Assembly (NCBI GenBank): GCA_903828675.1
Contig: CAIKND010000106.1
Location: 62,001-126,000, forward strand
DNA length: 64,000 nt
Direction of reading: 5' to 3'
DNA from: an uncultured Acidobacteriaceae bacterium
GTDB taxonomy: Bacteria > Acidobacteriota > Terriglobia > Terriglobales > Acidobacteriaceae
Positions within the stretch are counted from its first letter, which is position 1. The number at the start of each line of letters is the position of its first letter. Under the pieces are notes generated by a model, which saw nothing but the letters and a program-made list of their open reading frames with translations, had not been told where the DNA came from and made no database searches. Shown piece after piece: positions 54,395 to 64,000 of the stretch. Made by a program: the position numbers and the translations under genes.

Positions 54395-56008
54395 TCAGAC
54401 ACCGGAGATATTGCCGTCCACATCGACATCGATTGCCAGGGCACGAGGCACTCGCGGCAAACCCGGCATCAGCATCATGTTTCCAGCAACAATCACGATG
54501 AATCCTGCTCCGGCTGACAACAAGGCATCTGTCACATTGAGCGTCCATCCTTTAGGAGCACCTTTGAGACGTGGGTTGTCAGACAATGAGTATTGCGTTT
54601 TGGCAATGCAAATGGGCAGTCTGCCGAAGCCCCATTCGGTATAGTTCTGGAGCTTGGCGCATGCCTGTTCACTCAGCGTGACACCGCTCGCACCGTATAC
54701 CGTTGTTGCAACTTTGCGAATTTTCTCTTCGAGTGAGTCTTCCATAGAGTAGGCTGGCCGAATCTTGGGCAACGGATTCGCCTCTACCGCAGCAGCAACC
54801 TTTTCAGCTAGATCGACAGCTCCCATGCCCCCTTTGTTGAAGGCTTCGACAAGCGAGCAGGCAATCTCCTGCCGGTTGCACTCTTCTATAACAAATTCGA
54901 GTTCAGATTGAAGGTCCGCAGGAAACTGGTTGACGGCGACCACAACCGGAACGCCGAAGCCCTTGAGCATGGAAATGTGGTGAGTTAGGTTCGAAAAGCC
55001 AGCCTGGAGTGTTCCGCCACCCTGCTCGCGCAGGCTTTGTACCGTAGTGACAAGGACTGCGACAGCGGGACCGATCCCCGAAGACCGCATCACAATACCA
55101 AAATACTTTTCCGCGCCCAGGTCGGCGGCGAATCCGGCTTCGTTGACCACGAAGTCCGCCAAACGAATCGCCATCTGCTGCGAAAGGACACTGCTGGTGC
55201 CGTGAGCAATATTGGCAAACGGGCCTGTGTGGACAAGCGCGGCCGCGCCCTCGGTAGTCTGCACCAAGTTGGGCTCGAGAGCATCGTTAAGCAGCGCCAT
55301 CATCGCTCCGGTTGCGCCCAAATCGGCCGCACTCACCGGACGACCCGCATGAGATATTCCAACGATGATCGAGTTAAGACGATGACGAAGATCAGCGCGA
55401 CTTGAGGCAAGCCCCAGAATAGCCATAATTTCCGAAGCGGCTGTAATTACGAAACCTGTCTTGCGGCTTGTCCGTTCGCCCTTTGAATGGACCCCGACGG
55501 TGATGTGTCGCAGAGCACGGTCGTTGATATCGAGTGAACGAGGCCAGATGATCCGGGCCGGATCAAGATCCAGTTCGTTGCCGTGAAAAATGTGTGAGTC
55601 TACAATTGCGGCAAGAAGGTTGTGTGCTGAGGTAATGGCGTGAAAGTCGCCGTGGAAATGCAAATTGATCTTCTGACTTGGTTCGACCTGAGAAAGGCCG
55701 CCGCCCGCGGCTCCACCTTTCAGTCCGAAAACGGGGCCAAGCGAAGGCTCGCGCGAAGTGACGATCGCCTTACGTCCAATGCGCTCCAATCCCTGAGCCA
55801 GCCCAATCGAGACCACCGTCTTGCCTTCACCAGAAACAGTCGGCGTCGTAGCCGTAACCAGGATCAACTTGCCTCGAACAGGAAACGCGGAATCGGAAAG
55901 CAAATCCAGCTTGACTTTGGCTCCGTAAGCGCCGATTGGTTCATAATGAACAGGTGAAAGCCCAAGCTTCCGAGCAATCTCATCAATACGTAAAAGTGTA
56001 AAATTCAT
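54395..56008 (-). CDS. fhs: formate-tetrahydrofolate ligase
   Basis: 537 residues. Nucleotide loop TPTVSGEGKTVVSIGL (most members have PAGEGKTT), then SREPSLGPVFGLKGGAAGGGLSQVEP, NLHFHGDFHAITSAHNLLAA, AGFAADLGAEKYFGI and ALAIDVDVDGNISG at the end. It activates formate to 10-formyl-THF using ATP. Together with folD it connects formate to the C1 pool. Slightly shorter than the common ~555 residues. Confidence 0.95.
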   Translation of the reverse strand: MNFTLLRIDEIARKLGLSPVHYEPIGAYGAKVKLDLLSDSAFPVRGKLILVTATTPTVSGEGKTVVSIGLAQGLERIGRKAIVTSREPSLGPVFGLKGGAAGGGLSQVEPSQKINLHFHGDFHAITSAHNLLAAIVDSHIFHGNELDLDPARIIWPRSLDINDRALRHITVGVHSKGERTSRKTGFVITAASEIMAILGLASSRADLRHRLNSIIVGISHAGRPVSAADLGATGAMMALLNDALEPNLVQTTEGAAALVHTGPFANIAHGTSSVLSQQMAIRLADFVVNEAGFAADLGAEKYFGIVMRSSGIGPAVAVLVTTVQSLREQGGGTLQAGFSNLTHHISMLKGFGVPVVVAVNQFPADLQSELEFVIEECNRQEIACSLVEAFNKGGMGAVDLAEKVAAAVEANPLPKIRPAYSMEDSLEEKIRKVATTVYGASGVTLSEQACAKLQNYTEWGFGRLPICIAKTQYSLSDNPRLKGAPKGWTLNVTDALLSAGAGFIVIVAGNMMLMPGLPRVPRALAIDVDVDGNISGV

Positions 56009-56186
56009 AAAGTCTCTTCATAACTATACGAGGCAAGGCGTTCGGCGGCGTGTGATGCATGCACACTCGTACGCATCCATGACCGCACAAGTTGTCAAGC
56101 TCATCGTGATCAAGGCCGTGGCAGTTGCGTGACTTGGCGGATGCAGGCGCTGAAAAGCGTTCGTTTCCCGCACTATGAAGATCTCT

Positions 56187-59100
56187 CTAGGGCAGCCATA
56201 GTTCCCGTGACGCGAACAGCCGGAACTCTTCTGAATAGACAAACTCGTGAGTAATCCACGTGTCCTGTATCAAATCAACACGGCACCACCGGCGAAACAG
56301 GCAAATCCACCACTCTGCATGTGGAGATATTCTGTTGTCGGGAAATGCCAATTGAAGATTCGAATAGACCGTATACATAAAGTCCAAGAGTGAATTGGCA
56401 AACTGCGTCGCATAGAGCACGCTCTCCGGCGGATCCTGCGGAGCACTCCAGCTAACAAACGGAAGCGTGCCAGGTCCTGAGACGTCTTTTGGATCGAGCC
56501 TCATTGAAAGAGTGGACGTCTTTCGCGAATCATTCATGCGGTCTTCCAATCCAACCAGTTCCCTGCGCTCGCGCATTTCCTTCAAGATGCTTTCATATTG
56601 CTTTAAATGATCTCCAAAATACTTCTCCATCTCCGGAGTTCGCGGATACCAGATCGCATACATACGCCCAAAGAGCGCGCCAATATCTTCTGAGCCGCTG
56701 ACTTGGTTCTCTCCTCTTGAAAGAGCAGGCTTGATCGCGGTCGTAGCAATGTGGTGCCCCAGCCGCCGATAGGCTTCGAACAGCGTCTCAGTGAACCACT
56801 GGTTTGCTGTCGGATCCTGAGGAAACGCCGCACACTTCAATTGATGAGTGAGTAGATCCGCCGGCTCGTCTCCAACGAGAGACGACTTGAGGTAAACAAT
56901 CACGCCGGTGTAAGCATCGTCACGCGCGTCTTCCAAACACGGACAAGCAGTAACCGCGGCCGCCTTATCCGTCGCGGTTTGCGGAGGAGGATAGCGTATG
57001 GTCCCCACCACGCAGTGCGTCTTGCTGTTCCCTGTATCCGCACACCTCTGCAGTGGTCGCAGGTCCAGATCGATCTCGGCGCCAAAGTCCGCTCTGCACT
57101 TGGTGATCGCCCCTCCCATCCCTTCAAACGTCATCTCCTGATCGGCTTCTGCATCGCAAACAATTATGTATTTGCAGCGGCGCCGCACCAATTCATACAA
57201 CCCCATGTTTTCAAAGTGCCCACCATCGCTCAAATTCACATACTTCGAGCTATCGCCGACTAATCCGAATAGCTCCTTGAATAGGTGATAAAGTGCGAAG
57301 CGGGGTGTCGATCTCCCATTGGTGGATGGCCAGGCGTCCATCTTGCGCGTATTGGATATCCACCATCCCAACCGCACATTAAAGAACGTCATCAGAAATG
57401 CCAGAGCCGGGTTGCTGTTATAACCTTGGTTAGGATTGAGTGCGGCCCCACTAATGGCCACCGCGGAATCCAAATGGATGCCGCCTCCTCGATACGCATG
57501 TTCTTCGGTGAGAACATAGCCGTTATAACTCACCTGACAGTGTGGCCGGGCATCCGTCCATGGGACGCTGTAGCCAGAGTAGAGCGGAGTAAAGGCAAAG
57601 CTCGTCCCCTTTCTCTCCTGGGTTGCCAGGTCATTCCCCGTGGTGAGGTTCAACGTTGTGCAAAAGATTGGGAACGGGCCGTCATAGTGCCCCTCTTCTC
57701 CCGTAGTCCTGAAATACCCTCGCGGCAGCAGATCACGTACGCGCGGAGGGTGCTCGAGCATCACGCCTTTCCCGGTCCTCACAAAGCTGCGATCGTCGAA
57801 TCCGGTAAATGGATCTGCCTTCCTCTTCCCTGGAACCGTTGCTCCAAGATAACAGCGGGAGAGCCGATTCTTGTAGAACGCGTGCATTGAGAACTCGTTG
57901 ATATCCACCCGACAGCCCAGAACCCAAGCCACCAGGGCCGCACCCAGCAGGCACGTCACATCCGCCGTTACAAATGGTAGCCACTTGGGCCCGAAACTCA
58001 ACGGACACTGTGCCAGCAGGTAAGCAAGCTTGTCAACGCTTATGGAGGCGGCAAAAGATACAAGAAGCAGAAAACTCAGCACCGCCACCGGGGCAGCCAC
58101 TAAAGCCACAAGGTCAATTGTCTTGAAGCCCAGGAAGCCATTGCCCGTAGGCTTGCCATCCGCCTTGCCGCTCCAACCTGCAAACACAGTCGCGCCATGA
58201 GACACCACAAATGCAATTAGCGAGGTCCACGTCCACGCATTTCCTCGGACTGCAATGGCGTAACCTACATAGGGCCCCAAAAGCGCCAATGCCACGATCC
58301 CAGCCCATAACAGCGCATAGAGCATTGACCATGCCCGCAACCGGGCCAGCCATTCCCGCCTCATGTTTCCGTAGTCCCGGCCTAATAATCCGAGCGTAAC
58401 TTCAATCGCCACCCATGGAACACTAAGCAGCAGAGCAGGCAGCAGCGCCAGGCGAATGCGCCAGGCATCGACTACAATTCCGGCCTCACCGTTAACGATC
58501 GTCATGTCATGGATCCACCTGCTGAGCGTCACCGATCCCCAGCGACTAGCCTCCATGCCTGCCCAGCCCAATGCGATCGCAACCACCGTTGCTACAATTC
58601 CTCCTGCTGCAAATCCAGTCAGCGCGACTCCTGCACGCCACCAGCGTACTTCTGGATCGAAGCTTAGGAATGCCCTGTACGCTCCCCCCGCAAAAATCAC
58701 CAGCTCTGCCATCAGCAGCGTCAGTCCGCACAGAACGGCAATAGGTCCCCAGTACCGAGGTGAACTCGTAGCTATATGTAGTTGCACCCAGTAGCTCACC
58801 CACAGGGAACATCCAAGCCACGGCAATATCACCCATGCCACCACGCCGCTATTGGTCAGCAGGTTCTTCACTGAGCCCACGCTGGTCGCTGCGCGCCGTT
58901 CCTGTAGATATAGGTTCCTTGTTAGAATGCAAACTGAACAAAAGGCGTAGAGGGCCCAAGGTAGTCCAGACGCGATCCAGGCCCGTACTCCAACGCCGCC
59001 TCCATGTCTGAAGCCTGGGTGCCAGCCTTCGATTGGCCGCGGCACCAGCAGATGGACCAGATAAAATCCACAAGCAAACGCTGCCAGAATCGGGATCTGG

Positions 59101-60854
59101 TTAAGAATTGTGTTCCTAAGCCATACCGCCACCGCCGTCCAGGTATCGGCGGAGAGAACTCCACGTGAAGGTGTGAGATAACTCGCGTACCGCTTGAGCC
59201 ATAGGATTGGCTCTGGCGCCCTCGGTAGACAACCCGGCTCCGCTTGCGGTATCAACTCCTTGATTACTCTCGACTGGCTCCCGTTGTGCAGAATCCAGCC
59301 CGCAAGAAACTCGTGTATATATCCACCACCTGACACCGAGGACATATACTCAATCCTTGGCAGCAGTCCCATTTGCGCAAATCCCTGCAACACACCCAGA
59401 TTAAACGTCGCGCTCCGTATTCCCCCTCCGGAAAAGCACACCCCCGTCAGGCCCTTTTCGGCCACAATCTTGTAGATATCTCCTGCCGCCGTATCGCCAT
59501 TCCACACCCGCCTGGAATGCATTTCCTGTTCCAATAGCCATTTGCTCGGCATAAAGTAAGTCTTGGCCGCCAGTCGCTGCTGTAGCTTCGGATCTGCTAT
59601 TAGGTCATCCCATATATCGTCTTTCGAATAGAGCCTGCCACCGAGCTCTATCTGGGACGGGAGGATTTTCTCTACTATCTCGGGAGCACTCATCTGCTCA
59701 GAGTCAGACTCGTCGACTCCGGCCACTCTCATCCGCAAATCTGCATCGTCGCGTAACGCCGCGCACAGCTCATCTCTGGTTTGCCGCCTCCCCTCGATGT
59801 CTACCGTGTCAGGAAATGCAACTTCTATCAGGCGCCTGCAATACAACTCAAGCATCCATTTGCTGCGCGGATACCCACAAGCGGTTCCAACGAGATTTCG
59901 ATAGCTTCCGCTCCCCGCTTGCAGAGCGTTGCGCAGTTCATCTTTCTCTTTGTATCTCGTCAGGCAAATCCGGACCTCCTGCGGCTCAAGTCCATTCTTC
60001 TTCGCAAATGCCACATCCACCAAGCTCTCCCAATACAGCTCGTTGGAAGCGTAATGGTATGTCTCCGCTACATTCCGCCTCAGCGTCGGCGAAGCTTTCA
60101 TCTCCGCGTACAATCGATCTCGATCGTAATTCGCTCCACAAATATTAACTGTTCGTGGGAACACTATTCCGGCGATCTCTTCCCCGGCTGCGTCAGGATC
60201 GGCTCCGTATTTTGCGGCTACGCGCCGTTTGAACTCTATATCGCTTTTGAGTGCAGCCTGCAGCCTCCCCTCGCTGTACAAAGCACCCTCAATCCACGCC
60301 CCCGCGGGGAACGCAATGTCTGTTAGCCGAGTGCAATACTCCTCATTCGCCACAAGGGCAGCAACCCTCTGGCGTAGCCTCAGATCGACAGTCATTGACC
60401 TCATAAGCGAGTGCTGAGTAAACTTCACGCCTTCGACGGTGAACTCCGCAATCGGATATCCTTGCTCGTCCTTTCGAGCAAATACCTTGTCAACTAAGTC
60501 TCTGCTCTCCAGTTCGCCTGCGAATCTTCTGGCTACCCGCAAGCGAAGCCGCGGGTTCTTCATCAGTTCCGCATGCAGTCTTTCCCGATCGAATCGTCTG
60601 ACCCATAGCCTTAACTTTTCGGGAAAAATGGCCCTTACAATCTGCTGCACTTCCGGCTTACCGGATTGTTGCAGATGCTGCCCCGCGACCTCATAACTGA
60701 ATTCTTCACTCGCAAGAAGCGCTGTGCGTAGTTGTTGTTCGCTGTAGGTCTTGCCGCCTATCTCCACTTCCGTCGGGAATGCCGCGGCAACTAGACGACT
60801 GCACTCGACGAAGTCCGAGTCTGCCTCTATGGTGCGCTTCTGCTTGTCGTTCAT
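56187..60854 (-). CDS. giant membrane patatin-like phospholipase with N-terminal repeats
   Basis: 1555 residues. Residues ~10-450 hold about eight degenerate ~50-residue units of the pattern 'IVxxAFPxxVxIxGxxYxxxxLxxALxxdxxLrxRVA' (for example VAAAFPTEVEIGGKTYSEQQ, IEVAFPDTVDIEGRRQTRDE, VEKILPSQIELGGRLYSKDD). A patatin core follows: oxyanion loop FSGGGIRSATFNLGVLQGF (~472), GxSxG in SSVSGGGY (Ser ~507) and Asp in SDGGHFENMG (~1207). Between these last two lie about ten membrane helices (~590-990). It probably acts on lipids at the membrane. Last gene of a four-gene operon. Confidence 0.9.
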   Translation of the reverse strand: MNDKQKRTIEADSDFVECSRLVAAAFPTEVEIGGKTYSEQQLRTALLASEEFSYEVAGQHLQQSGKPEVQQIVRAIFPEKLRLWVRRFDRERLHAELMKNPRLRLRVARRFAGELESRDLVDKVFARKDEQGYPIAEFTVEGVKFTQHSLMRSMTVDLRLRQRVAALVANEEYCTRLTDIAFPAGAWIEGALYSEGRLQAALKSDIEFKRRVAAKYGADPDAAGEEIAGIVFPRTVNICGANYDRDRLYAEMKASPTLRRNVAETYHYASNELYWESLVDVAFAKKNGLEPQEVRICLTRYKEKDELRNALQAGSGSYRNLVGTACGYPRSKWMLELYCRRLIEVAFPDTVDIEGRRQTRDELCAALRDDADLRMRVAGVDESDSEQMSAPEIVEKILPSQIELGGRLYSKDDIWDDLIADPKLQQRLAAKTYFMPSKWLLEQEMHSRRVWNGDTAAGDIYKIVAEKGLTGVCFSGGGIRSATFNLGVLQGFAQMGLLPRIEYMSSVSGGGYIHEFLAGWILHNGSQSRVIKELIPQAEPGCLPRAPEPILWLKRYASYLTPSRGVLSADTWTAVAVWLRNTILNQIPILAAFACGFYLVHLLVPRPIEGWHPGFRHGGGVGVRAWIASGLPWALYAFCSVCILTRNLYLQERRAATSVGSVKNLLTNSGVVAWVILPWLGCSLWVSYWVQLHIATSSPRYWGPIAVLCGLTLLMAELVIFAGGAYRAFLSFDPEVRWWRAGVALTGFAAGGIVATVVAIALGWAGMEASRWGSVTLSRWIHDMTIVNGEAGIVVDAWRIRLALLPALLLSVPWVAIEVTLGLLGRDYGNMRREWLARLRAWSMLYALLWAGIVALALLGPYVGYAIAVRGNAWTWTSLIAFVVSHGATVFAGWSGKADGKPTGNGFLGFKTIDLVALVAAPVAVLSFLLLVSFAASISVDKLAYLLAQCPLSFGPKWLPFVTADVTCLLGAALVAWVLGCRVDINEFSMHAFYKNRLSRCYLGATVPGKRKADPFTGFDDRSFVRTGKGVMLEHPPRVRDLLPRGYFRTTGEEGHYDGPFPIFCTTLNLTTGNDLATQERKGTSFAFTPLYSGYSVPWTDARPHCQVSYNGYVLTEEHAYRGGGIHLDSAVAISGAALNPNQGYNSNPALAFLMTFFNVRLGWWISNTRKMDAWPSTNGRSTPRFALYHLFKELFGLVGDSSKYVNLSDGGHFENMGLYELVRRRCKYIIVCDAEADQEMTFEGMGGAITKCRADFGAEIDLDLRPLQRCADTGNSKTHCVVGTIRYPPPQTATDKAAAVTACPCLEDARDDAYTGVIVYLKSSLVGDEPADLLTHQLKCAAFPQDPTANQWFTETLFEAYRRLGHHIATTAIKPALSRGENQVSGSEDIGALFGRMYAIWYPRTPEMEKYFGDHLKQYESILKEMRERRELVGLEDRMNDSRKTSTLSMRLDPKDVSGPGTLPFVSWSAPQDPPESVLYATQFANSLLDFMYTVYSNLQLAFPDNRISPHAEWWICLFRRWCRVDLIQDTWITHEFVYSEEFRLFASRELWLP

Positions 60855-60881
60855 GGATTCTCCAACAGCGTTCCGTGCCGA

Positions 60882-62444
60882 TCATTTCATCAGTTGTGGA
60901 CTCAGGCGCTGAAGGGCCTTTCCCCGTGGCGTAAAGAAGAATGTATCTATAACAAATGAGATAAAACGTTGTGTGAAGATCGTGCTGTGATCCGGAACAA
61001 CATCAGGATCGATCTCCATCATCCAGTAGGGTGTACCGTTGCAGCGATTTGGCCTCTCCTGAATAGCGAAACATGCGTGCGTATCCGCGAGGCGGAACGT
61101 GCTTACAATATTCAGGTGCTGCTTGTTAAACAGGTCGCGATTGCATCCAGCTATCGCGCTTGGATCTTCGATCTGGATGACCTGGCCCGTCGATGACACG
61201 CGCATCTGGTTCGCCCCAACTGCCTTCAGCATCACGTGGCTTTGCAGAATCTGCATGTGAGGCGCAGTGCTCAAATAATATGAGCTCTGCGCTTGGGCGC
61301 CTTCCTCCTTCGTCTTGAGTTTCCAGTAGGGATGCTCCCTGTGTGGATCGAAGCAGGTAAGATCGAGATCGCCTCCCGGCTCAGAACTCAGTTTCCGAAA
61401 GCTCCCGTTTGCCTTGAACCCAAAGTATGGAAGTCCGTGTCCGATTGGCAGCGCGACCTTTGTAGCCATATCTGTGGTGGATGTAAGGGAAACAAAGAGA
61501 GGTCTGTCTAGCTCACTTTCCGCCGAGGATGCGCCTTCGGAATCCTGATCGTCCTTGCCGAGTGCGAGCGGATGGTATTTGTATCCGTTATAAGTTAGAA
61601 AGTCCAACATTTGCTTGGCCTCGGTGGCCGCCCCTGCCGGATTGATGAAGATCACCAGGTCGGCCCGTGAGTCTACCGCCAGCCTTGCTGCGAGTCTCTT
61701 TTCGCTCGCTGCCTGCGGATTTTCCTGGGCATCGGCTTCCTGAGTGTAGATGGTTGCCTCCGCAATTTGACTCGCGGTCGCCTCGCTCACGGTGCGCTCC
61801 AGCAGCAAGCCGCCGAAAGAATGCCCGATGAAGACTGCCAGAGCTCTTTTGTTTTCATGAGTGCGAGTAGCAATCTGAGTCAGCGCACTTGACAACGTCG
61901 CGCCAGGCACGCGGATTGCCGTAGCCTCGCGGTTGAAGTAAGAGAACTGGCGCGCAATCGGAAAATAGCTCTTCACCAAGTCGCCGCGCCAGCCAATATA
62001 TATACCGATTACACGATGCGTTTTCTGAAATCTTCGGTATACCTCCTGCAGCGCAGCTTTGAAGCCCTCGACATTTTGGTTCGTTTCACTGGCATTGTTC
62101 TTCCACCCATGCACAAAAGTGATGACGATTGGGTCAGACTGTCCTGGCTCGGCATTTGCAAGGTCGTTTGCCTGGCGGATGAGCCGAAGCGCCGTATCCA
62201 CCTCGCCCTTTTCGAATAGCTCGCCCATGTCGTCAACTTCAATGAACGCCAGGCATACCGCATTACTCGCGCCTGTGCAGTCTTTGTCCGGTACGTGGGC
62301 CGCACTATTGTTTCCTGAGGAATCCGGTGGCGCGGGCACCGCAATCGCTGGATGCTGCAGACGGTACGACTGCAATGGCACATGACAGCCGGTAAGAGCG
62401 AAGAGCAGGAGTCCGGCTGCCAACGTCTGGCCTTTCGTGATCAT
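60882..62444 (-). CDS. lipoprotein alpha/beta hydrolase
   Basis: 520 residues. A lipoprotein signal LLLFALTGCHVPLQ anchors it outside the inner membrane. An alpha/beta-hydrolase fold follows: HGWKNNASETNQNVEGF near the first strand, GIYIGWRGD, and the nucleophile elbow FIGHSFGGLLLERTV. It is an esterase or lipase-like enzyme. The start overlaps the upstream secreted-protein stop by 4 bp and the stop is 27 bp before the patatin gene, so two lipid-type hydrolases are made together. Confidence 0.88.
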   Translation of the reverse strand: MITKGQTLAAGLLLFALTGCHVPLQSYRLQHPAIAVPAPPDSSGNNSAAHVPDKDCTGASNAVCLAFIEVDDMGELFEKGEVDTALRLIRQANDLANAEPGQSDPIVITFVHGWKNNASETNQNVEGFKAALQEVYRRFQKTHRVIGIYIGWRGDLVKSYFPIARQFSYFNREATAIRVPGATLSSALTQIATRTHENKRALAVFIGHSFGGLLLERTVSEATASQIAEATIYTQEADAQENPQAASEKRLAARLAVDSRADLVIFINPAGAATEAKQMLDFLTYNGYKYHPLALGKDDQDSEGASSAESELDRPLFVSLTSTTDMATKVALPIGHGLPYFGFKANGSFRKLSSEPGGDLDLTCFDPHREHPYWKLKTKEEGAQAQSSYYLSTAPHMQILQSHVMLKAVGANQMRVSSTGQVIQIEDPSAIAGCNRDLFNKQHLNIVSTFRLADTHACFAIQERPNRCNGTPYWMMEIDPDVVPDHSTIFTQRFISFVIDTFFFTPRGKALQRLSPQLMK

Positions 62445-63274
62445 TGATTGCCCCCTGTGCCTGATTTCGGCTGCGAACCGCGGCGAAACAGCGCGCCCAG
62501 CACGTTAGTAATCTCCGGCTTGTATTCACAGTAGAAGCTCGAAAGCACTGCGGTGCCCAATGCGCCTGCCGCACGCTGTCCCACTTTTCCCGCGGAATTC
62601 TCCGCACCGGGATACCACGGAAAGCCCGCGTATGCGCCGCCGAGCTCTGCCGCAAAACGTGAGATCGCTGGTATACGGTGGCCGTGCCCTTGAACGGAGG
62701 AGCGGCGAACGGTTACCACGTCGAACCATGCGTGATCGAATCTCTTCCAGCCGTCATGAGCGAAGGCATCCAGGCTCTCCGCCGACGGATTCACGCAACT
62801 TTCTTGGGCCCCAATCGACATTCGCGCGGCGAGAGCGCAGACAGCATCCCTGTGACGAGCAAGGACTGCGGCATCGGAGTGATAGGCAAGGAATCTCGGG
62901 TCATCCTTGAGCATAAGTCCAAAGACATACTGTGCCGCCCCTTTGCCAATGGCTTGCGAGTAGCGGGAGCCAACGCGCCTGCCATAGCCGTCCCAGTTGC
63001 GCCCCCACTCCGGCGGTGACTTGATCACTTGCGCTCCGAATCCAAACACCAAAGCTCCAAGCAGAGACTGGTCGCTGACAGAGCTTGACACGAAGTCCAG
63101 TGTCCGCTGCCGCGTCGTGTAACTACAGTCTCTTGCTGTAAGGTCGGTGGGGAATGCCCCGGGGCACACCTGGATTGCCGCAACCTTCTGCGTTACAGTT
63201 GGTTGAGCACCCACCGCCCCTGCCGCGATAATTGCGGTAATCAGGAAAAGCAACTGGACTGGCCTCAATATCAT
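62441..63274 (-). CDS. secreted protein of unknown function
   Basis: 277 residues. The signal peptide is LLFLITAIIAAGAVGAQP. The mature part has ALVFGFGAQVIKSPPEWGRNWDGYGRRVGSRYSQAIGKGAAQYVFGLMLKDDPRF, a Gly/Arg-rich motif typical of a group of acidobacterial exported proteins whose function I do not know. Six Cys suggest disulphides. It is translationally coupled to the hydrolase gene (ATGA overlap) and 17 bp after the oxidase gene. Confidence 0.8.
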   Translation of the reverse strand: MILRPVQLLFLITAIIAAGAVGAQPTVTQKVAAIQVCPGAFPTDLTARDCSYTTRQRTLDFVSSSVSDQSLLGALVFGFGAQVIKSPPEWGRNWDGYGRRVGSRYSQAIGKGAAQYVFGLMLKDDPRFLAYHSDAAVLARHRDAVCALAARMSIGAQESCVNPSAESLDAFAHDGWKRFDHAWFDVVTVRRSSVQGHGHRIPAISRFAAELGGAYAGFPWYPGAENSAGKVGQRAAGALGTAVLSSFYCEYKPEITNVLGALFRRGSQPKSGTGGNQ

Positions 63275-63291
63275 TAACCCCCTCCATCCAC

Positions 63292-64000
63292 TTACGAGAG
63301 CAGTTCCCTGAAATATGCATTCAGCAAGCGGCCTTGCGGGTCATATTCCCTGCGGGCATCTGCCAGAACCTTCAGCCGTTCTCCATAGGCATTCTGCACG
63401 ATATTTGCATCCAGGCCCGGCGTCTGATTCGGCAGAGGTTTACCATTCCTCTCGACACAGAACTTGTTGTAGGCATCGAGATAGTCGAACCACCCAGGGT
63501 TCGCAGTGGATACGGGATCAATGGTCATCACCGTTCCGTCGTAGGAATACGAAAGTAGCGCCTTCTGATCCTGCGCGATGCGATAGCCAACATAGAGCAG
63601 GTTTGACCGATAGCCCTTTTGCGCATAATAGTCGTTGCAGAACTTGAAGAAATCAGTAATGGCCGTCGGATACTCGTCCTCGGGGAAGGCAAATAGGCTG
63701 AATGTGTAGCGGCTGTCGTCGGACACCGGCGGATACTGAATGATCTGATCTGGCGGGATAGTGTAGTCGCTCGAAACAATGGATTCCAGTTGCAAACGCC
63801 AGGCTGCGTTGAAGGCATCTATGATCCCGTACCGTATGGACGGGATGGAGATATTCTGTTCGATGTCATGCCCGAACTTGGGGCCCGATGTACCCCAGAT
63901 GTGATTTCTCAATGCCCATGCGGCGTGGTTTGGTTCGCCGGATGCGCCAGGATTGTACTTGCGGAACTCGACAGTAATCTTGCCGTCGAAGGGGAAAATG
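63292..64000 (-). CDS. FAD-linked oxidase, C-terminal part (cut by window edge)
   Basis: The open frame continues past the right edge; 235 codons are visible. The tail ADARREYDPQGRLLNAYFRELL matches the end of FAD-linked oxidoreductases of the lactone-oxidase/BBE type, and VGYRIAQDQKALLSYSYDGTVMTIDPVS and HAAWALRNHIWG look like cap-domain segments. The FAD-binding half lies outside. It is the first visible gene of the four-gene operon with the secreted protein, hydrolase and patatin. Confidence 0.75.
   Translation of the reverse strand, partial: IFPFDGKITVEFRKYNPGASGEPNHAAWALRNHIWGTSGPKFGHDIEQNISIPSIRYGIIDAFNAAWRLQLESIVSSDYTIPPDQIIQYPPVSDDSRYTFSLFAFPEDEYPTAITDFFKFCNDYYAQKGYRSNLLYVGYRIAQDQKALLSYSYDGTVMTIDPVSTANPGWFDYLDAYNKFCVERNGKPLPNQTPGLDANIVQNAYGERLKVLADARREYDPQGRLLNAYFRELLS

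Follow-up and report, generated by a model that had tools for sequence, protein, structure and literature searches.

What does a probable bacterial membrane lipase gain from eight degenerate repeats at its N-terminus, and from where did these repeats come? The question is raised by a gene in a 64,000-nucleotide stretch of DNA (positions 62,001 to 126,000 of contig CAIKND010000106.1, referred to as the window) from an uncultured Acidobacteriaceae bacterium whose genome we label G000. The product of the gene (P0001, 1555 residues) joins a repeat array to a catalytic domain predicted to resemble patatin and cytosolic phospholipase A2 (cPLA2), into which a block of membrane helices is inserted. 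The repeat is uncatalogued and known so far from a narrow lineage. The original prediction, made from the sequence alone, had placed the open reading frame (ORF) correctly and had given no strand, which proved to be minus.
56187..60854, minus strand: membrane patatin/cPLA2-like protein with N-terminal repeats, 1555 residues (ORF sequence, GGAG, orthologue at 67% identity)
The ATG lies at 60854 with a Shine-Dalgarno-like GGAG 5 nucleotides 5' of it, and the closest relative, from a metagenome-assembled genome (MAG) of Terracidiphilus in the same genus (G268, with the records L070 and L110), is 67% identical. An Rfam scan of 55500-64000 gave no match, and a search for promoter and terminator patterns found them at chance level only.

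Residues 18 to 446 are built from eight units of about 50 residues, starting at residues 18, 69, 117, 174, 225, 276, 339 and 390, as the original prediction of some eight degenerate repeats had it. Comparison of residues 1 to 470 with themselves in ungapped 25-residue BLOSUM62 windows gives a top score of 60 and 159 windows scoring at least 35, far beyond 20 shuffles of the same residues, in which the top score is 37 and 0 to 2 windows reach 35. The units, found by self-comparison, by a hidden Markov model (HMM) and by class scoring (the classes A, B and C are taken up below), are as follows.
60651..60803, minus strand: repeat unit 1, class A, residues 18-68 (self-comparison, HMM, class scoring)
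60507..60650, minus strand: repeat unit 2, class B, residues 69-116 (self-comparison, HMM, class scoring)
60336..60506, minus strand: repeat unit 3, class C, residues 117-173 (HMM, class scoring; the weakest class assignment)
60183..60335, minus strand: repeat unit 4, class A, residues 174-224 (HMM, class scoring, structure model)
60030..60182, minus strand: repeat unit 5, class B, residues 225-275 (HMM, class scoring, structure model)
59841..60029, minus strand: repeat unit 6, class C, residues 276-338, with a SKWMLE-like tail (HMM, class scoring, model)
59688..59840, minus strand: repeat unit 7, class A, residues 339-389 (HMM, class scoring, structure model)
59517..59687, minus strand: repeat unit 8, class B, residues 390-446, continuing into the PSKWLLEQE linker (HMM, class scoring)
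The consensus of 17 units from the window protein and its relatives, LVExAFPxxVxxxGxxYxxxxLxxALxxxPxLxxRVA, comes close to the AFP-type core first proposed, and the same core positions are retained across units that are only 15-36% identical in pairs. Tandem Repeats Finder reports no array on the DNA, the repeats being visible at the protein level only; on this ground and for the low identity we reject a recent tandem duplication at the DNA level.

Does the repeat belong to a known family? A Pfam scan of the window protein at E<=1 gave no match, and hence no catalogued repeat, C2 or other domain, and whole-protein searches of NCBIfam, PADLOC, PHROGs and PDB sequences returned nothing convincing; a search of phage sequences had no match. 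The 17 units scanned singly against Pfam give one weak match (Lmo2446-like_N, E 0.013), and the repeat profile reaches E 0.16 at best against PDB sequences, so that the original statement that no named repeat has this pattern is borne out in these collections. A search with the whole protein finds relatives in 40 of 200 family genomes and in 13 of 80 genus genomes (a first scan of genome contigs with the single protein had found none). Units are recognised in four genomes, always on the same enzyme: eight in G000, five in G268, two in G169 (Acidicapsa dinghuensis, records L033 and L111) and two in G183 (L032), a genome of the same genus as G169. An HMM built from the eight window units alone recovers five units in L070 and two in L033, the records L110 and L111 having been scored with a profile that already holds their units; with the window-only HMM L032 scores a full E of 6e-10, showing one clear unit and weakly matched fragments of another that carries an insert, its count of two resting on inspection and on a profile that contains its own units. 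In genomes of the family (398), the class (299) and the phylum (396), sets which overlap, the repeat profile found no further array and none outside this enzyme; the first pass scores only some of the candidates in each genome, and arrays may have been missed. The original prediction had suggested looking for the repeats beside other output domains, and none turned up there within these limits. Outside the enzyme family there are only single partial matches of 18.5-22.4 bits, among them a stretch of 22-23 positions shared by ten genomes from a single distant genus, and these we treat as chance or as a short shared helix. Literature on bacterial membrane patatins with repeats, or on patatin together with a haem peroxidase or alpha-dioxygenase, describes neither the cluster nor the repeat in the passages available from the best-ranked open papers.

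An AlphaFold2 model of residues 169-470 (units 4-8 and the linker) was built from 14 alignment rows, of which 10 are single-module relatives covering the last unit or two, while units 4-6 rest on the window protein and L110. Its mean predicted local distance difference test (pLDDT) is 86.2 and its predicted template-modelling score (pTM) 0.73, model residues 119-125 falling under 50. All five modelled units are predicted to consist of a helix, two short strands forming a beta-hairpin, and two further helices, and the repeated structure on which the original prediction had staked itself is thus present in the model of units 4-8. Matches to solved structures are weak (best Foldseek E 0.61 against the PDB, best VIA-align Z 3.9) and the best match in a viral structure library has E 0.25; such weak matches of a model are no proof of a new fold. 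An ankyrin repeat has about 33 residues, a helix-turn-helix plus a hairpin, and an ankyrin fold is rejected on account of units of 48-63 residues with helix, hairpin, helix and helix in the model.

How did the array reach eight units? The units fall into three classes that recur in order (A: 1, 4, 7; B: 2, 5, 8; C: 3, 6), with a mean score of 58.6 for pairs within a class against 38.2 for the other pairs of the window protein. Of 560 labelings only 2 give an equally good separation, and on the unit tree the classes take 3 changes where the minimum is 2; none of 200 shuffles gave so few. The counts of 2, 5 and 8 look like the gain or loss of a three-unit block. Several details speak against so regular a history: unit 3 is closer to unit 7 (50) than to unit 6 (34), unit 8 scores 45 and 52 with units 2 and 5 and 51 with unit 1, and the tree of the units has little resolution (1 of 14 branches starred, 11 of 14 forks open). 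Units 2 and 3 of the window protein (w2B, w3C) sit on long branches and a clean tree proof of A-B-C blocks failed; the tree is too weak to prove the three-unit block or its direction. Units 4-6 are 53, 42 and 57% identical to their L070 counterparts and units 1-3 are 36, 30 and 21% identical to units 4-6. Since units 1-3 are less like units 4-6 than the latter are like their counterparts in the other species, the three-unit block may predate the split of the two species, with a later loss from one of them, instead of being a gain in the lineage of the window.

The ultimate source of the unit was sought at the N-termini of the relatives, for which 96 loci were reduced to 85 distinct ones (11 dropped as duplicates or without match) and to 77 with a readable start region (8 left out). 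The window protein shares its catalytic domain, its membrane insert and the PSKWLLEQE-type linker with bacterial membrane proteins labelled "patatin-like phospholipase family protein". The linker, which follows unit 8 and is common to single-module relatives, stands before the catalytic domain as Y-x-P-x-x-W or a close form in 26 of the 77, and 22 of these have no array. Unlike the window protein, most such relatives lack multiple units: at least two units occur in the four genomes only, and the 22 carry one module-like stretch. A YCxRLA-like start is found in 15 of these 22, or in 19 of the 26 when arrays are counted. A profile of the 15 single-module starts matches the A-B block including the linker with a probability of 97.6 over 36 columns. 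The match drops to 29.8 over 27 columns against the unit profile without the linker, where 20 column shuffles stay at or below 2.5. Two points lower the odds that the array grew from a single module: without the linker, which makes up most of the strong profile match, the homology looks weak in sequence, and the module is in the minority, as 51 of the 77 relatives have other N-termini with neither the linker nor the single module. On balance we slightly favour the array as an amplified form of this family module. Within this lipase family the N-terminus appears to have changed repeatedly. As a separate observation, four relatives (L073, L074, L075 and L080) have a different N-terminal region of 420-550 residues in place of repeats, which by eye is alike among them.

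What does the array accompany? The remainder of the protein divides into two catalytic halves, the membrane block between them and a C-terminal region.
59160..59453, minus strand: catalytic half 1, residues 468-565, with the oxyanion loop SGGGIRS and the nucleophile Ser508 in SVSGGGY (invariance, cPLA2-like fold)
57909..59150, minus strand: inserted membrane block, residues 569-982, about ten helices (hydropathy, model, charge pattern)
56730..57899, minus strand: catalytic half 2, residues 986-1375, with Asp1210 in SDGGHFENM (invariance in 44 of 44)
56190..56729, minus strand: C-terminal helical region, residues 1376-1555, retained by the three closest relatives in the alignment
The oxyanion loop G-G-G-x-R, Ser508 and Asp1210-Gly-Gly are invariant in all 44 aligned rows (the window protein and 43 of 56 loci, 13 being left out as truncated ORFs or near-duplicates). 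Unlike in the usual patatin, the nucleophile motif SVSGG (S506-V-S508-G-G) has no Gly two residues before the Ser, so that a strict G-x-S-x-G is not present; the family consensus has Thr at the first place. A model of residues 390-1555 from the 44 rows (pLDDT 79.5, pTM 0.79) finds human cPLA2 (1cjy, 5iz5) as its best Foldseek match (E 2.3e-4). VIA-align also places cPLA2 first (Z 23.1, root-mean-square deviation 3.7 A over 382 residues), with other Ser-Asp dyad enzymes at Z 15-18 (PlpD 18.3, CapE 17.6, patatin 16.1, and CapV also matched); likeness to all of these lies in the dyad motifs, the GGG-x-R loop and the fold. A cPLA2 assignment is weakened by low Foldseek template-modelling scores (0.18/0.32). 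PF01734 is not matched at E<=1 by the window protein or L070 (the relatives L045, L042 and L039 pass), and placement in the patatin/cPLA2 superfamily is for this reason made by fold, and not under PF01734. What had been called a catalytically complete patatin is thus complete in its motifs and, in its modelled fold, closest to cPLA2. The protein is very probably a lipase of the cPLA2/patatin type, and we infer a lipid substrate. The same genome encodes a separate PF01734 patatin (G000:C176:1698-2273, E 1.6e-26).

Unlike cPLA2 and patatin, the window protein has about ten membrane helices between Ser and Asp and no C2 match. Hydropathy gives 9 peaks between residues 587 and 979, between the catalytic Ser and Asp, and the model has ten long helices between residues 569 and 982, at lower confidence (block means 30 to 90); together they support the inserted block of some ten membrane helices that had been read from the sequence. 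The tenth candidate span, residues 872-894, has no charged residue. With hand-chosen boundaries, the presumed inside loops hold 15 Lys and Arg in 82 residues and the outside loops 11 in 117. Ten spans would leave both catalytic halves on one side of the membrane, and the N-terminus and the catalytic domain are probably cytoplasmic, to judge from the sequence.

Is the array more than a spacer? It could be mainly structural, as a lid, spacer or oligomerisation element whose copy number has drifted and in which there is little specific function beyond the unit beside the catalytic domain. Compared with L110 the array (units 4-8) is 51% identical, the membrane block 63% and the catalytic halves 86% and 80%, so that the array diverges faster than the enzyme, and the copy number varies between 2, 5 and 8 among the closest relatives. 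Against drift stand the core positions kept across units, the 42-57% identity of orthologous units between the two species, and the proportion of non-synonymous differences from L110, 0.32 (pN), below that of synonymous ones, 0.76 (pS), where the synonymous distance (dS) is mostly saturated and only the direction pN < pS is used. By this comparison the array is under purifying constraint, and we consider a mainly structural array unlikely. The closest known arrangement is that of the animal enzyme iPLA2-beta (PLA2G6), in which a repeat array is likewise N-terminal to the lipase domain. According to the available passages of PMC5823874, its N-terminal ankyrin repeats precede a patatin domain, are thought to serve docking or regulation, and are combined with no transmembrane domains. 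Unlike those repeats, the unit of the window protein has about 50 residues, three helices and a hairpin, and no ankyrin match. The roles first suggested for the array were a sensor, a binding array or an assembly platform; by its position and by analogy with iPLA2-beta we favour a docking or regulatory surface, a proposal that we place just short of an even call.

Where might the products of the lipase go? The genes upstream, together with the one just beyond the right end of the window, suggest oxidation.
60882..62444, minus strand: putative lipoprotein alpha/beta-hydrolase, 520 residues, with an LTGC lipobox and GHSFGG by eye (sequence)
62441..63274, minus strand: 277-residue protein with an N-terminus that looks signal-like by eye, its gene sharing 4 bp with that of the hydrolase
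63292..64000, minus strand, extending past the window end: C-terminal part of a flavin adenine dinucleotide (FAD)-linked oxidase, ALO-like, 450 residues (FAD_binding_4, E 1e-17)
L031:12796-15687 (about 126795-129686 of the contig, just right of the window), same strand: fatty-acid alpha-dioxygenase homologue, 963 residues (PF03098, E 3e-63)
The hydrolase gene lies upstream of the patatin gene with a gap of 27 bp; it has relatives in L044 and L049, and a Pfam scan of its 520-residue product gave no match. A protein of 248-277 residues without a convincing Pfam family accompanies the hydrolase in two distant loci, the window and L044:1481-2227. The full FAD oxidase gene is L031:11293-12645. The 963-residue haem protein has its best PDB sequence matches in 4kvj (E 6e-53) and 4kvl (3e-52), which are fatty acid alpha-oxidases, and in 4hhr (2e-49), an alpha-dioxygenase, all three of which we take to be plant enzymes. 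The residues aligned to His157, His311, Thr316, Tyr379, His382 and Arg559 (numbers being chain position minus 3) are all six identical. They are presumably the catalytic Tyr, the proximal and distal haem His and the fatty-acid-binding His311, Thr316 and Arg559. By its sequence the neighbour is a fatty-acid alpha-dioxygenase homologue of the haem peroxidase superfamily with its catalytic residues retained. It resembles the plant and cyanobacterial alpha-dioxygenases (4kvj, 4hhr; available passages of PMC8720084) in keeping the haem and fatty-acid-binding residues; it is unlike them in its 963 residues with extra sequence, its signal-like N-terminus (by eye) and its place beside a lipase and a flavin oxidase. 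The same passages report the family in Acidobacteria, and those of PMC8720084 and PMC9305512 name neither a role for bacterial alpha-dioxygenases nor a lipase partner.

Such a neighbourhood bears on another possibility, that the protein is a defence effector with the array as its sensor, an infection-triggered membrane lipase comparable to CapV. Patatin lipases are effectors in known anti-phage systems, and the structural matches include CapV and CapE. The protein and the three upstream proteins have no PADLOC match, no cyclase or other defence gene is recognised among the neighbours scanned, and the upstream genes whose products could be recognised encode lipid and redox enzymes; a defence role is very improbable. 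An effector of the CapV type, in a cyclic oligonucleotide-based anti-phage signalling system (CBASS), was specifically rejected, as there is no PADLOC match and no nucleotide cyclase among the neighbours scanned.

Does the pairing of lipase and dioxygenase recur? The dioxygenase is found in 14 of 200 family genomes, and PF03098 in 8 of 80 genus genomes and in none of 14 control genomes. All four repeat-bearing genomes have it (G000, G169 and G183 in the family draw, and G268). These cases are not independent, since G102 and G197, of the same genus as G169 and G183, have the dioxygenase without a lipase match. Among 15 acidobacterial dioxygenase loci (left out were G187 with split frames, G244 with fragments, G252 with a different peroxidase, and distant second types in G098 and G040), a membrane patatin adjoins the gene in three (G000, G268, G040) and a Tle1-like lipase (PF09994 in L070) in four (G268, G200, G222, G159), so that one or the other lipase is beside it in six; the FAD oxidase adjoins in seven. 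The contig of the G200 locus also has a patatin relative, some 19 kb away. A peroxidase homologue (26-31% identity) is present in 20 plasmid records, five of which, from Phyllobacterium and four Rhizobium, also show a match to a patatin relative within 4 kb, the gene table covering one of the five. In that from Phyllobacterium (L186) two thiamine-pyrophosphate-binding proteins lie between patatin and peroxidase; 2-hydroxyacyl-CoA lyase, a classic enzyme of alpha-oxidation, depends on thiamine pyrophosphate. A Calothrix plasmid has the peroxidase with a GMC oxidase and a different patatin, Qingshengfaniella has a peroxidase homologue beside a FAD oxidase homologue (42%), cytochrome c and an alpha/beta hydrolase, and a Rhizobium phaseoli plasmid has one with cytochrome c and no patatin.

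The rival to coupling is that the lipase performs ordinary turnover or remodelling of membrane lipids, still regulated by the array, and that its dioxygenase neighbourhood is coincidental. The lipase family is widespread and its gene neighbours differ: among the 85 distinct loci a ribonucleotide-reductase-like protein (by eye) occurs near 10, a cytochrome-c-like protein near 5 and a GMC oxidoreductase near 4. Three observations tell against coupling and for turnover: from the side of the lipase the dioxygenase adjoins in only 3 of the 85 loci; 8 of the 15 dioxygenase loci (G191, G130, G183, G169, G102, G197, G139 and G157) have no patatin, Tle1-like lipase or FAD oxidase adjoining; and these include two genomes with two-unit patatins, G169 and G183, where lipase and dioxygenase are on separate contigs. 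Coincidence is argued against by pairs of lipase and dioxygenase homologue in Acidobacteria, on Rhizobiales plasmids and, with another patatin, on the Calothrix plasmid, and by two unrelated lipase types beside the dioxygenase. The pairing is genuine in some lineages and missing from most. Plain turnover with a coincidental neighbourhood seems somewhat unlikely, and coupling to fatty-acid alpha-oxidation in this organism is a possibility to which we give slightly less than an even chance. Apart from these pairs, cytochrome-c-like proteins occur near the membrane patatin in L044, L125, L045, L038 and L039, three of these loci also having a GMC oxidoreductase and L045 a DyP-type peroxidase, a second kind of lipase-redox cluster. 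L041:15731-17476 is an MCRA-family (oleate-hydratase-like) gene, its product being another enzyme that handles free unsaturated fatty acids, about 4 kb from a membrane patatin. A relative with 38% identity in its best segment (L133) lies on a contig labelled Klebsiella pneumoniae (MAG), possibly mislabelled or from a contaminated bin.

Taken together, we propose that the protein would be a polytopic inner-membrane lipase that hydrolyses membrane lipids at the cytoplasmic face via its Ser508-Asp1210 dyad. Oxidation of the released fatty acids would fall to the alpha-dioxygenase homologue and the flavin oxidase encoded next door. The array would have arisen from an N-terminal module, made of a helix, a beta-hairpin, two further helices and the PSKWLLEQE linker, by multiplication, probably in blocks of three, to eight units that would act as a docking and regulatory scaffold, as proposed for the ankyrin repeats of iPLA2-beta. 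One difficulty is location: the dioxygenase looks exported, to judge from its N-terminus, and the array and lipase are probably cytoplasmic, which makes it unlikely that the dioxygenase docks directly on the array and means that the fatty acids would need to cross the membrane, unless the lipoprotein hydrolase serves outside. As a whole this explanation is tentative and rather doubtful, and its most ambitious form, a new solenoid-like repeat grown from the protein's own module in three-unit steps and scaffolding a bacterial counterpart of the eicosanoid-type route from cPLA2 to oxygenase, with a cPLA2-like membrane lipase supplying an alpha-dioxygenase of the cyclooxygenase superfamily, is distinctly improbable.

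If it holds, the growth of a repeat protein would be traceable in living relatives, through two, five and eight units and perhaps from one, and a confidently predicted unit fold would stand without a Foldseek match among solved structures. The pairs of lipase and alpha-dioxygenase in several bacterial phyla would be candidate cassettes for fatty-acid alpha-oxidation or for oxylipins.

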